DNA of 33,696 nt, from the NCBI RefSeq assembly GCF_001434055.1, contig NZ_AZCZ01000032.1, positions 1 to 33,696 of the forward strand, read 5' to 3'. The translations under genes were made by a program, and so were the position numbers. This document shows positions 9,709 through 12,916 of the stretch, piece after piece. Numbering within the stretch: position 1 is the first letter of the stretch; each line of letters starts with the position of its first letter. The notes under the pieces are model-generated. The model was not told where the DNA came from. It ran no database searches and saw only the letters and a list, made by a program, of their open reading frames with translations. This DNA is from Levilactobacillus parabrevis ATCC 53295. GTDB taxonomy: Bacteria; Bacillota; Bacilli; Lactobacillales; Lactobacillaceae.

Positions 9709-10509
9709 ATGAATATTGGATTTATTGGGGTCGGCGGTATGGCCCAAGCCATCATTGGTGGGTTGCTTAACGCTAAGACGTTTGCACCGGCAGAAATTGT
9801 GGTTCACAGTCACCGTGAGGAAAGCTATTTGCCGTATGCCCAGGCGCACGACCTAGTTGCGGCTAAGAGCAATCAGGCAGTCGCTGCGGCTAGTGACTTA
9901 ATCGTGCTAGCAGTGACGCCGAACGTGGCCCCGGCAGTCTTAGCAGAAATCAAGGATGAACTGACCGCCGATAAAACGTTGATCTCGATTGTAGCCGGAC
10001 TATCATTGGCCGACATAGCAGCGATTACCGGTGCGGGGCTTCCCACGCTGCGGACGTTGCCCAACGTGAACGTTGAGGTCGGTGCGGGGATGACGGCGGT
10101 TGCCGCCAACGCTGTACTGACCGGTGACCGTTTGAAGGCGGCACTGCGGGTGTTTAACACGATTGGGTCGACGACCACGTTAGCCGAGGACCAATTCGGC
10201 GTCTTCAGTGCGCTGGCGGGGAGTTCGCCGGCCTACATTGACTTCTTCATCGATAGCTTGAGCAGAGCCGGCGTGAAGCACGGTCTGACCAAGGCCCAAG
10301 CCACAGCAATTGCGGCTCAGGCCACGTTGGGTTCAGCTAAGATGGTCCTGAAGAGCGACAAGATTCCGTTTGAACTGATCGACCAGGTCTCCTCACCAGG
10401 TGGGAGTACGGTTGCTGGGTTGCTGGCGATGGAAGAAGCCGGCCTGATGACGGCGGTGGTCAAGGGCATCGATGCGACGATCAAACGCGATGCCGGGGAA
10501 ACGGACTAG
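9709..10509 (+). CDS. proC: Pyrroline-5-carboxylate reductase
   Basis: 266 residues, standard length. It reduces pyrroline-5-carboxylate to proline with NAD(P)H, the last step of proline synthesis. The Rossmann motif GFIGVGGMAQAIIGG is at residues 4-18; the C-terminal dimer domain has SALAGSSPAYIDFF and the conserved SPGGSTVAGL motif (about 225-235). AGGAGG ends ten bases before ATG 9709. It lies 13 nt after the peptidase gene with no terminator between. proA/proB are not in this window. No clear terminator follows within 100 nt. Confidence 0.95.
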   Translation: MNIGFIGVGGMAQAIIGGLLNAKTFAPAEIVVHSHREESYLPYAQAHDLVAAKSNQAVAAASDLIVLAVTPNVAPAVLAEIKDELTADKTLISIVAGLSLADIAAITGAGLPTLRTLPNVNVEVGAGMTAVAANAVLTGDRLKAALRVFNTIGSTTTLAEDQFGVFSALAGSSPAYIDFFIDSLSRAGVKHGLTKAQATAIAAQATLGSAKMVLKSDKIPFELIDQVSSPGGSTVAGLLAMEEAGLMTAVVKGIDATIKRDAGETD

Positions 10510-10624
10510 TTTCTGACGCTACTGTTAATGGGAACACTGGCCAAGTTTTAGAGCCCGTGAAAACAAGCGGCACGAGTGCGGCCTAACTATGAAAAAATTT
10601 GTGAAAATTATCTACGCGTGTGAG

Positions 10625-10653
10625 TTGCATTTTTGGTCTATACCGATTACAAT
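10625..10653 (+). promoter_or_regulatory. Promoter P1 of nagA with embedded GntR operator
   Basis: TTGCAT (10625-10630), a 17-nt spacer and TACAAT (10648-10653). The spacer contains TGGTCTATACCG (10634-10645), matching 9 of 10 fixed positions of the NagR/DasR-type pattern TGGTNTANACCA. Repressor binding there would block RNA polymerase. The regulator is most likely the GntR/UTRA protein encoded at 12215. Confidence 0.75.
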
Positions 10654-10665
10654 GAAAAGTAGGCA

Positions 10666-10694
10666 TTGGTTGGTTCTAGCAGGGTAGCTATAAT
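10666..10694 (+). promoter_or_regulatory. Promoter P2 of nagA leader
   Basis: TTGGTT (10666-10671), 17-nt spacer, perfect TATAAT (10689-10694); predicted start near 10701. It lies just downstream of P1 and outside the operator, so it could drive the structured leader independently of the amino-sugar repressor. Confidence 0.7.
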
Positions 10695-10759
10695 TATTTT
10701 GGCGAGAAGTGACTTGTCAGTTTTAATGAATGAGATGCAGGTATGACTGAGCAACGTTT

Positions 10760-10983
10760 CGGCTTTAGTGTGGAGGGTGTCTCCATATGAGCCGTGAGGG
10801 TGGCGTCAATCAACCCAGCTGTGGGAATTATCTTAGCGGTTTACCGCTTAGATAATTGGTGTCTTTGAAACTCGGTCTATGAGGTTCAAAGACAAGCCGG
10901 AAGGCCGCACTAAGGCTTCCGGCGCCCGCCCTCAGCGTCCCGGTTGATTGACGCCACCCGGCAAGGCGCTGGTTATATCCAGC
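10760..10983 (+). ncRNA. Large structured RNA element in nagA leader
   Basis: An 18-bp perfect stem joins 10798-10815 with 10942-10959 (first arm GGGTGGCGTCAATCAACC). It encloses three hairpins: 10826-10857 (AATTATCTTAGCGGT arm, one mismatch), 10861-10893 (GTCTTTGAA/TTCAAAGAC plus CTC/GAG) and 10896-10923 (GCCGGAAG/CTTCCGGC). Flanking it are CGGCT/AGCCG (10760-10794, with inner TGGAG/CTCCA) and GCTGG/CCAGC (10968-10983). CCCAGCTG (10814-10821) can alternatively pair CAGCTGGG (10980-10987), and TGAGGG (10795-10800) with CCCTCA (10929-10934), so switching is possible. No T tract follows, so it appears to be a leader or processed RNA, not a terminator. It does not match RNase P, tmRNA, SRP, T-box or glmS ribozyme signatures that I know. 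A MITE-like element with 18-bp ends is the alternative. Confidence 0.6.
10787..10855 (+). CDS. Possible 22-residue leader peptide before nagA
   Basis: ATG at 10787 opens a 22-codon frame (MSREGGVNQPSCGNYLSGLP, then LR, then TAA) with GGAGGG at 10772-10777, nine bases upstream, a good ribosome-site spacing. The frame crosses the 5' arm of the 18-bp stem and all of the first hairpin, so translating ribosomes would have to open the structure. The ribosome site itself sits in the TGGAG/CTCCA hairpin. It may be chance; no homology is recognised. Confidence 0.3.
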   Translation: MSREGGVNQPSCGNYLSGLPLR

Positions 10984-11035
10984 TGGGGTACACTAATGCC
11001 AGACTAGTTGTTGTCATGTGATGAGGAGGAGACTC

Positions 11036-12178
11036 ATGAGTATTGTCTTAAAGCACGCTAAGATTTATACCGGGGACGACGTGATCCCCGATGGTTACAT
11101 CCGTTTTGACCAACAGATCGAAGCGGTCGGGCCGGTTGCTGATTTTCAGACACTGCCCGCCGATGAGATTCACGTGGTTACGGGCCGGACGATTGTGCCC
11201 GGTTTTATCGATGTTCATAGCCACGGTGGTTATGGATATGATAGTATGGATGGGGACCCTGAACAGATCGATAAGATGGTCAATCTGATGGTCCATGAAG
11301 GGATTACGTCGATTTTCCCCACCACGATGACGCAGTCAAATGAAGCCATCGATCATGCCATGCAGGGGATTGCGGAAGCAGCCCAGCACAATCCGGTGAT
11401 TCAAGGGGTCCACTTGGAAGGCCCATTTATTGCGGCCATCTTCAAGGGTGCACAACCGGAGAAGTACATTAAGGATCCCGACGTTTCCCTGTTGGATCAT
11501 TGGAACAAGCTGTCCGGTGGTCGGGTCAAGTTAATTACCTATGCACCAGAGGATCCAGGTTCGAAGGCATTTGAAGCTTACTGCTTGGCTAATAAAATTG
11601 TGCCATCCGTGGGCCATTCTAACGCTACGCGAGAACAACTCCTCGAGAGCCGGGCAACCCACGTGACCCACTTGTACAACGCACAGCGAGGCTTGCGTCA
11701 CAGAGAGCCTGGTGTGACCGGTCATGCCATGCTGGAAGACAATTTGTATTGCGAATTGATCTGCGATGGCTTCCACATTGTGCCGGATATGATAAAATTG
11801 GCTTATGAACAAAAGGGGCCACACCGGTTGGAACTGGTGACCGACTCCATGCGTGCCAAGGGGATGCCAGAAGGTGTCAGTGAACTTGGCGGGCAAAAGG
11901 TGATTGTGAAAGACCGTCAAGCGCGGTTGGAAAGCGGCAATTTAGCCGGTTCCGTCTTGCGGTATGACGAAGCCTTCAGAAACATCATGGACTTTACCGG
12001 TTGTGATATGAATGACGCCGTGCAAATGAGTTCGGTCAACCAAGCTGAAGAATTCAACTTGACGCAAAAGGGCAAGTTAGTTCCCGGTCGCGATGCTGAC
12101 CTGAACCTCTTCACCCGTGATTTACAGCTGGAAACGACCTACAGTCTAGGGCGGAAGTTCAGTCAAGAATCCAAGTAA
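11036..12178 (+). CDS. nagA: N-acetylglucosamine-6-phosphate deacetylase
   Basis: 380 residues, the usual family length. It converts GlcNAc-6-P to glucosamine-6-P and acetate in the cytosol, feeding glycolysis or cell-wall synthesis. Amidohydrolase motifs are in order: DVHSHGG (His61, His63), HLEGPF (Glu128), VGHSNA (His194), THLYNA (His212) and VTDSM (catalytic Asp270). The start is ATG 11036; an upstream in-frame GTG at 11018 would place the AGGAGG site inside the gene. The bases ATGAG (11021-11025) and CTCAT (11033-11037) can pair, putting the ribosome site in a loop. It is preceded by a ~335-nt leader and followed after 36 nt by its likely regulator. nagB is not in the window. Confidence 0.95.
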   Translation: MSIVLKHAKIYTGDDVIPDGYIRFDQQIEAVGPVADFQTLPADEIHVVTGRTIVPGFIDVHSHGGYGYDSMDGDPEQIDKMVNLMVHEGITSIFPTTMTQSNEAIDHAMQGIAEAAQHNPVIQGVHLEGPFIAAIFKGAQPEKYIKDPDVSLLDHWNKLSGGRVKLITYAPEDPGSKAFEAYCLANKIVPSVGHSNATREQLLESRATHVTHLYNAQRGLRHREPGVTGHAMLEDNLYCELICDGFHIVPDMIKLAYEQKGPHRLELVTDSMRAKGMPEGVSELGGQKVIVKDRQARLESGNLAGSVLRYDEAFRNIMDFTGCDMNDAVQMSSVNQAEEFNLTQKGKLVPGRDADLNLFTRDLQLETTYSLGRKFSQESK

Positions 12179-12214: not shown

Positions 12215-12916
12215 GTGAGCTCACCGATTTATATTCAAATTCATAATGACATTAAACGCGCTATTGAGGCAGGAAAGTGGGCGGTTGGCGACCGAATTCC
12301 GTCCGAACGAGAACTGTCTCGAGATTTTGATGTGAGTCGGATGACGCTCCGTCAGGCGATTCAGACCCTGGTTGATGAGGGGATTCTGGAGCGTCAGGTG
12401 GGGTCCGGAACCTACGTGGCCAATCAGAAGGTTCAAGAAAAGATGTCCGGGGTCACGAGTTTTACCGATCTGATGTTGGCCCAAGGTAAACAACCTGCCA
12501 GCAAGACCATTTCGTATCACGTGATGAGTCCATCACTCAGCGAGGCGGAGAAGCTGAAGCTGCATGAGGACGAGCAGGTACTACGGATGGAACGGATTCG
12601 GTTTGGAGACGATGTCCCGATTTGTTTTGAAGTGGCCACGGTACCAGAACACTTGGTGGACGGCCTCAGCAAGCAAGAGGTGACCAGCTCCCTGTACCGG
12701 GCGTTGGAAGACAAGAAGAATCTAAACCCGGGGAAGGCCCAACAGACGGTCTCCGCCATGTCCGCTTCCGAACGGATCGCCGAGTTCTTGAAGATCAAGC
12801 GTGGTGATGCCATTTTGCGGTTGCGACAGGTGACCTATCTGCAAGATGGGACGCCATTTGAATACGTGCGGACGCAGTATGTCGGCGAACGGTTCGAGTT
12901 TTATCTTGAAAAATAA
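12215..12916 (+). CDS. GntR/HutC-family regulator with UTRA domain (NagR-like)
   Basis: 233 residues. The winged helix lies at about 5-70 (SERELSRDFDVSRMTLRQAI, then LERQVGSGTYVA), followed by a UTRA effector domain (about 85-230; e.g. LRMERIRFGDDVPICFE and FEYVRTQYVGERFEFYLE). NagR/YvoA proteins of this type bind GlcNAc-6-P or GlcN-6-P and release TGGTNTANACCA-like sites. Its position 36 nt after nagA, probably in the same transcript, implies autoregulation through the operator at 10634. Starts at GTG 12215 with a weak GGGACG site. It is followed by a terminator. It is the only GntR protein here and the natural candidate for the sites at 383-417 and 24761. Confidence 0.9.
   Translation: MSSPIYIQIHNDIKRAIEAGKWAVGDRIPSERELSRDFDVSRMTLRQAIQTLVDEGILERQVGSGTYVANQKVQEKMSGVTSFTDLMLAQGKQPASKTISYHVMSPSLSEAEKLKLHEDEQVLRMERIRFGDDVPICFEVATVPEHLVDGLSKQEVTSSLYRALEDKKNLNPGKAQQTVSAMSASERIAEFLKIKRGDAILRLRQVTYLQDGTPFEYVRTQYVGERFEFYLEK

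Follow-up and report, generated by a model that had tools for sequence, protein, structure and literature searches.

The region between a promoter and nagA in Levilactobacillus parabrevis ATCC 53295 folds into an extensive structure, raising the question of whether it is a leader RNA of nagA or something else. The initial annotation of the window (the whole 33,696-nt stretch of DNA analysed) described it as a large uncharacterized leader and offered three options: a sensor of an amino sugar, a separate small RNA or a palindromic mobile element. The structure is genuine, but the label is wrong: it represents a single copy of a repeat dispersed in high copy number between genes of the Lactobacillaceae, so that a dispersed, structured and probably mobile repeat sits in the nagA leader; of the three options the palindromic mobile element is favoured, with dozens of unlinked copies in the genome.

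Organization of the nagA locus

The promoter, nagA and the repeat features described here are all on the forward strand. The open reading frame at 11036–12178, which we take to be nagA, as in the initial annotation, has GAGGAGGAG upstream at 11023–11031. The nagA promoter (10625–10653; −35 TTGCAT, 17 nt, −10 TACAAT) lies over a palindrome, GGTCTATACC (10635–10644), that is presumably a GntR/NagR operator; GGTCTATACCGATTAYAAT is present in all 30 nagA loci of the genus examined, with a fuller form including TTGCnTTTTT in 21 of them. An open reading frame just 3′ of nagA (12215–12916), which by eye we assume to be a GntR-type regulator, fits this palindrome.

Relative to the short leaders of L. 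tujiorum (G028) and L. hammesii (G011), the locus contains an inserted unit of ~340 nt (10662–11000) whose ends, GGCATTGGT and ACTAATGCC, are near-perfect inverted repeats; its boundaries were placed by eye and are uncertain by several nucleotides. Visual inspection of the junctions at nagA, which carry the same uncertainty of several nucleotides, revealed no recognisable target-site duplication. The promoter (P2) earlier proposed for the leader would correspond to a TTGGTT—17 nt—TATAAT sequence at 10666–10694 (9/12 matches); this lies within the leader part of the inserted unit (10662–10759), and the nagA promoter of the genus is the one at 10625–10653. The 10666–10694 site is putative, and such sites are not clearly enriched ahead of 46 copies of the repeat: the mean best promoter score is 7.8 in the sense direction versus 7.5 antisense, 7.5 in shuffled sequence and 6.9 in the 3′ flank, with scores of 10 or above in 3/46, 1/46 and 1/46 sense, antisense and 3′ flank sequences, respectively.

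The structured part of the unit contains a conserved core of ~178 nt (10790–10967; AGCCGTGAGGG ... CCCGGCAAGGC) inside an outer stem, P1, with a 5′ arm of copy-specific sequence at 10761–10785 and a 3′ arm at 10984–11000 (exact register uncertain for both). The perfect 18 bp stem that had been reported is confirmed as the closing stem of the core (P2; 10798–10815 with 10942–10959), and the three hairpins said to lie within it are present as P3 (10826–10857), P4 (10860–10894) and P5 (10896–10923). In the minimum-energy fold, outer pairings around the stem join 10760–10785 with 10984–11013. Two alternative pairings are also readable in the sequence as described: 10814–10821 (CCCAGCTG) with 10980–10987 (CAGCTGGG), and 10795–10800 (TGAGGG) with 10929–10934 (CCCTCA).

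The structure near nagA is real and far beyond chance: the folding energy of 10760–11036 is −139.1 kcal/mol compared to −93.95 (sd 5.3) in 200 dinucleotide shuffles (z = −8.5), none of which is as stable. There is indeed no T tract 3′ of the stem, and the combination of hairpin and U tract that defines an intrinsic terminator is absent; the sole terminator-like site (10699–10720) falls inside the leader part and occurs at chance frequency (1 found versus 1.4 expected). The window copy is overlapped by no open reading frame of 60 aa or more.

The Rfam search proposed in the initial annotation upholds, for Rfam 15, its statement that the structure belongs to no known RNA family. At gathering cut-offs the whole window yields only tRNAs, and at E ≤ 10 the region 10500–11100 yields only a chance-level Plant_SRP fragment. 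The element behaves like a structured RNA in covariance models, yet over the element no Rfam 15 family exceeds its gathering cut-off, either in the window or across 18 copy-bearing loci.

Distribution of the repeat

A blastn search with a 297-nt query gives 43 matches in the L. parabrevis genome (133 contigs), including the window copy and fragments, and the other matches are 72–85% identical over up to ~200 nt. When a covariance model derived from 44 of the copies was applied to the genome, 77 candidates were scored and at least 71 matches passed E ≤ 1e-6, the window copy being matched over 10788–10967 (E 6.8e-39); the genome thus holds the many unlinked copies that had been named beforehand as the mark of a mobile element. 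Element matches are carried by 32 of 34 Levilactobacillus genomes. There are four in L. brevis ATCC 14869 and none at E ≤ 1e-6 in L. huananensis (G012) and G024, whose relatives have dozens; the counts for nine genomes of the genus are lower bounds, 77 candidates having been scored in each. In a sample of the bacterial family, scanned with stricter filters and scoring the best 10 candidates or fewer per genome, matches occur in 72 of 251 genomes and 11 of 40 genera (E ≤ 0.001).

Copies within the genome have a median core identity of 0.757 and a maximum of 0.929 (46 copies); they are old, unlike those of a recently active element. Carriage by phages or plasmids was considered and dropped, as blastn with a 196-nt core region finds no match in either collection, a search that would miss distant relatives. 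The repeat is undescribed in the open-licence PMC literature searched, with publication elsewhere being possible.

Common fold and covariation

Forty-six near-full copies of the L. parabrevis genome were used, two of which (L061 and L065:3241) are internally deleted and were left out of the alignment of 44. The core spans AGCCGTGAGGG to CCCGGYAAGGC and comprises the closing stem P2 with an inner helix, followed by hairpins P3, P4 and P5. The covariation analysis suggested in the initial annotation reveals compensatory double changes in 42 of 61 pairs (44 own copies), including 12/18 in P2, 14/14 in P3, 10/12 in P4 and 5/11 in P5. The covariation score is 0.435, compared with 0.167 for shuffled and at most 0.088 for slid alignments, and 98.4% of paired cells can pair (85.5% shuffled; at most 48.1% slid). 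A second set of 31 copies was drawn from 22 additional loci, of which 20 belong to other genera and two (L088 and L098) to divergent congeners; here double changes are seen in 56 of 61 pairs, with a score of 0.684 (0.151 shuffled; at most 0.095 slid) and 94.3% paired cells (60.2% shuffled; at most 45.0% slid), in an alignment that, being fitted to the model, is biased in its favour.

The outer stem behaves differently from the core. When the P1 arms are cut out (45 of 46 copies), arms of the same copy pair with a mean of −22.8 kcal/mol versus −15.2 kcal/mol between copies, and none of 2000 permutations is as good as the own-arm mean; P1 is therefore complementary within each copy while its letters differ between copies, for which only a weak consensus is seen by eye. 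The downstream flanks of the copies share nothing at E ≤ 0.01. At the ends of the core, the two sides of the internal loop vary together from one copy subtype to another (e.g. GCCGTGAGGG..CCCGGTAAGGC versus GCCGCAGGG..CCCGGAGGC), which suggests a non-canonical paired motif.

Paired arms and gene surroundings

Many copies have a second type of arm (type C) upstream in the opposite orientation. The regions of the L. parabrevis genome analysed contain 71 arm matches including fragments (51 type A and 20 type C), and 23 neighbouring arms within 900 nt are arranged as leftwards then rightwards in 19 instances, both leftwards in three, both rightwards in one, and never rightwards then leftwards; two of the four exceptions to the first arrangement (L042 and L062) turn out on inspection to be fragments of a single broken arm. 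All nine second arms in the 22 other loci have the leftwards-then-rightwards order, with spacers of 26–265 nt and 23–44% GC. The typical form is two folded arms head-to-head with 3′ ends outward and an AT-rich middle, each arm being a ~178-nt core inside a copy-specific outer stem. Single arms also occur (e.g. the nagA copy).

With genes called simply as open reading frames of at least 100 codons, 43 of 45 copies have a gene closer to their 3′ end than to their 5′ end (median distances 62 and 385 nt, respectively). The first gene beyond the 3′ end runs in the same direction as the copy in 30/45 and against it in 15/45, and copies are found in co-directional, divergent and convergent gene gaps. 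An all-against-all comparison of open reading frames near the copies reveals no family that accompanies them generally; there is one large family (presumably ABC ATPases), several families common to two or three loci, and translated element sequence.

nagA leaders in relatives

A NagA homologue is present in all 34 genomes of the genus searched, and 30 nagA loci were compared in detail, 13 of them with the covariance model. A AGGAGGAG ribosome-binding region is visible in the leaders compared, and most relatives have a short leader behind the same promoter, as the initial annotation stated is normal for nagA. The element is located between proC and nagA in nine of the 30 loci, and the other 21 show a promoter and a ribosome-binding site but no element, the model having been applied to 13 of the 30. 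The proC–nagA gap in these 21 is 72–127 nt in 17 and 189–202 nt in G028, G022 and G005; proC was not found in the G031 locus. By eye, the G028 (L. tujiorum) gap has an apparent 3′ remnant of the element. The leaders of G022 and G005 (loci L111 and L112) are longer by ~100 nt downstream of the nagA promoter and ahead of the ribosome-binding site; the extra sequence corresponds to the position of the element in the window and is possibly an old remnant.

Only in L. parabrevis and L. fuyuanensis, among the 30 loci, is the element between the promoter and the ribosome-binding site, and the distance from the −10 box to the ATG is 382 nt in the window versus ~45 in L. tujiorum. In the seven other loci with an element it lies between proC and the nagA promoter, as a pair in four and as a single model match in three. 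Model matches upstream of nagA occur in 8 of 29 named Levilactobacillus-group loci, one of which bears just the title Lactobacillus sp., compared with 0 of 51 other named loci, some on short contigs, and a general regulator of nagA is therefore excluded. Because of its location between promoter and gene, the element is probably part of the nagA transcript in L. parabrevis and L. fuyuanensis; any effect on nagA would be incidental, in that an extended, folded 5′ leader may reduce or modulate expression.

Changes between sister species

Of 42 matches in L. fuyuanensis (G010), 30 were compared with L. parabrevis, 21 of which are orthologous to the copy loci analysed; two of the nine remaining loci were sought in the L. 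parabrevis genome. At the L138 site L. parabrevis retains a 3′ stub only, and there are one-unit insertions or deletions at L137/L040 and L161/L054. In L. parabrevis L161 (1040–1480) inverted arms CTTAGCTGAC/GTCAGGTAAG are separated by an 11-nt loop, and in L. fuyuanensis L054 (11035–11185) a whole C-type unit lies between CTTAGCTGAC and GTCAGCTAAG. At the L031 site (L. parabrevis L165, ~1250–1590) a C-type unit is enclosed by outer stems (P1 and outer P2) that belong to an A-type element, which gives the appearance of a replaced A-type interior.

The 22 orthologous pairs compared (the L137 pairing was set by hand) have core identities of 0.91–0.97 in 12, referred to here as descent orthologues, and 0.715–0.79 in eight, with which L037:13919 (0.825) is grouped; the internally deleted L061 pair has an identity of 0.877. 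In the nine low-identity pairs the core, or part of it, is about as different as random copies of the genome (median 0.757) while the flanks are orthologous, being 79.5–99.5% identical apart from one left flank without a match; L048/L151, for example, has 94 and 99% identical flanks around a 78% core. L053/L139 and L067/L142 and L143 are likewise seen to have closely similar flanks and differing cores. Only some helices differ strongly in L067:1471/L142 and L037:13919/L160, and single hairpins appear to have been exchanged separately at some sites. A search for donors among the copies compared gives per-helix best identities of mostly 0.75–1.00 and no donor of a whole core. The low-identity cores could arise by gene conversion, by exchange, by independent insertion at one site or by very fast compensated change.

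The P1 arms remain recognisably orthologous even where the core is replaced. P1 was rejected as a stem that covaries in place, as orthologues show 6 double-kept versus 126 broken P1 pairs, and arms swapped between the two species pair about equally well (among 21 comparisons the natural combination is the better in 12 and the chimeric one in 8, with one tie); P1 is therefore site-specific, without support for compensatory maintenance. Core double changes between the species were also rejected as in-place compensation, since 103 of 107 come from the nine low-identity sites and four from the 12 descent sites.

Constraint on the fold

The 12 descent orthologues differ at 39 of 1409 paired positions (0.028) versus 78 of 799 unpaired positions (0.098), a pattern that a dead relic would not show. 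They contain 10 broken pairs, compared with 21.5 expected (minimum 16 in 1000 redistributions), and four double changes compared with 0.7 expected (maximum 4). Among the 44 own copies G.U outnumbers A.C by 92 to 18 without two wobble-rich positions (147 to 18 with them), and in other loci by 28 to 12 without four weak positions (45 to 23 with them), so that over the long term the bias is towards the sense strand. Wobble pairs are nevertheless few (3.5% in own copies and 1.8% in other loci), a level that is low for an RNA, and recent single changes in the descent orthologues comprise 17 G.U and 13 A.C, which does not favour recent selection on a sense RNA. These data fit a constraint on the folded strand, whether DNA or RNA.

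Nature of the repeat

REP, BIME and REPIN sequences are dispersed intergenic palindromes of high copy number in which a head-to-head pair of arms is the unit and solitary arms are also found, and their presumed way of working is that a folded single strand is recognised by an enzyme. The repeat shares the high-copy intergenic palindromes, the inverted head-to-head pairs (19 of 23 in L. parabrevis and 9 of 9 in other loci) and the solitary arms, and works most like a REPIN or BIME. However, the REP palindrome is 20–40 nt whereas the core here is ~178 nt with three hairpins in a multibranch, the cores differ at shared sites, and a Y1 transposase accompanies REPIN and REP-RAYT repeats but does not track the copies here. 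Y1 transposase (PF01797) matches in the 34 genomes of the genus do not follow element counts: there are none in G020, G029 and G003 (with 66, at least 77 and at least 77 element matches, respectively), five in G012, which has no element, and six in L. parabrevis; a Y1/RAYT partner was accordingly rejected. Because arm size and Y1 partner both disagree, the repeat is not classified as a REPIN or BIME. REP, BIME and REPIN sequences and the RAYT transposase are the subject of PMC3116915, PMC2817692 and PMC3733652.

The preferred reading, to which we assign a probability of about 0.6, is that the repeat is a mobile element of the REPIN/BIME-like, non-autonomous type, set apart by structured arms of unusual size and by cores that can be exchanged. 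It builds on what is observed directly, namely the number of copies, their shared and covarying fold, the head-to-head geometry of the arms, sites that differ in presence or absence of a copy, and where the nagA copy lies; mobility is supported by presence and absence at the nagA leader, the L138 site, the L137/L040 and L161/L054 insertions or deletions and the two match-free genomes. Speaking against this reading are the Y1 matches that do not follow the elements, the lack of a recognisable target-site duplication, the age of the copies and the slower change at paired positions in the descent orthologues. The repeat would spread, or would have spread, without encoding its own enzyme; a folded single strand, of DNA or RNA, would be what an enzyme recognises, and the arms would be several times larger and more elaborate than those of REPINs and BIMEs.

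The strongest competitor, though clearly the less probable one, is that the host maintains the copies for their function as structured RNAs, for example as transcription attenuators, mRNA protectors or divergent small RNAs, after a dispersal in the distant past. The slower change at paired positions, the deficit of broken pairs, the predominance, over the long term, of sense-strand G.U over A.C pairs and the 3′ ends pointing at gene borders are all consistent with this; set against it are the near-balance of recent G.U and A.C changes, the scarcity of wobble pairs, upstream promoters that are not clearly enriched, an oppositely oriented 3′-side gene in 15 of 45 copies and the absence of matches from two of 34 species. 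A conventional MITE, an IS deletion derivative moved through conserved terminal inverted repeats, is improbable. The repeat is short, intergenic, of high copy number and without a transposase gene (~340 nt at nagA, with no open reading frame of 60 aa or more), and the nagA insertion ends in inverted repeats, but the outer repeats are copy-specific and not common to copies (the own-arm P1 energies matched by 0/2000 permutations), the downstream flanks are without similarity at E ≤ 0.01, and no IS is identified near copies (neighbouring open reading frames being compared with each other only). Least probable is a riboswitch or other leader RNA specific to nagA. The position of the element between promoter and nagA in L. 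parabrevis and L. fuyuanensis is what speaks for it, whereas a riboswitch has a conserved association with the leaders of one regulon; here there are dozens of unlinked copies, which adjoin other genes in either orientation, upstream matches in only 8 of 29 Levilactobacillus-group loci, element-free leaders with promoter and ribosome-binding site in 21 of 30, and copies upstream of the promoter in seven other genomes. The amino-sugar option is thus not supported.

A further, rather doubtful reading is a docking-site system, in which the copy-specific outer stem would be a lasting chromosomal site and the core, or single hairpins, a cassette swapped with family members by a dedicated enzyme or directed gene conversion. 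Lasting site-specific outer stems with replaced cores are, to our knowledge, unusual among bacterial repeats, and if such a system exists, dozens of intergenic sites keep a fold while its letters change. The contrast between such stems and cores, seen when the two sister species are set side by side, makes the upkeep of perfect pairing (by selection, conversion or an enzyme) directly testable in harmless, culturable bacteria, and the element-free genomes of L. huananensis and G024 provide a natural contrast for finding a partner enzyme. More generally, an RNA-like fold that is absent from Rfam 15 will confuse annotation of leader RNAs and small RNAs, and its presence in dozens of intergenic regions of lactobacilli may shape many transcripts.

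Two other groups of repeats can be set beside this one by description only. The bcr1 repeats of the Bacillus cereus group (named in PMC2267715) are dispersed, ~147–167 nt long and have a predicted common fold. The likeness is in size class and common fold, and the host group is different. The bcr1 repeats are not known to stand head-to-head or to have their cores replaced. BOX and RUP of Streptococcus pneumoniae are small interspersed repeats with extensive predicted structure, located at 5′ and 3′ regions of operons and judged parasitic and slow-moving (PMC3049150). BOX is composed of A-B-C modules, whereas here two types of arm form an inverted pair, and the hosts belong to a different bacterial family.
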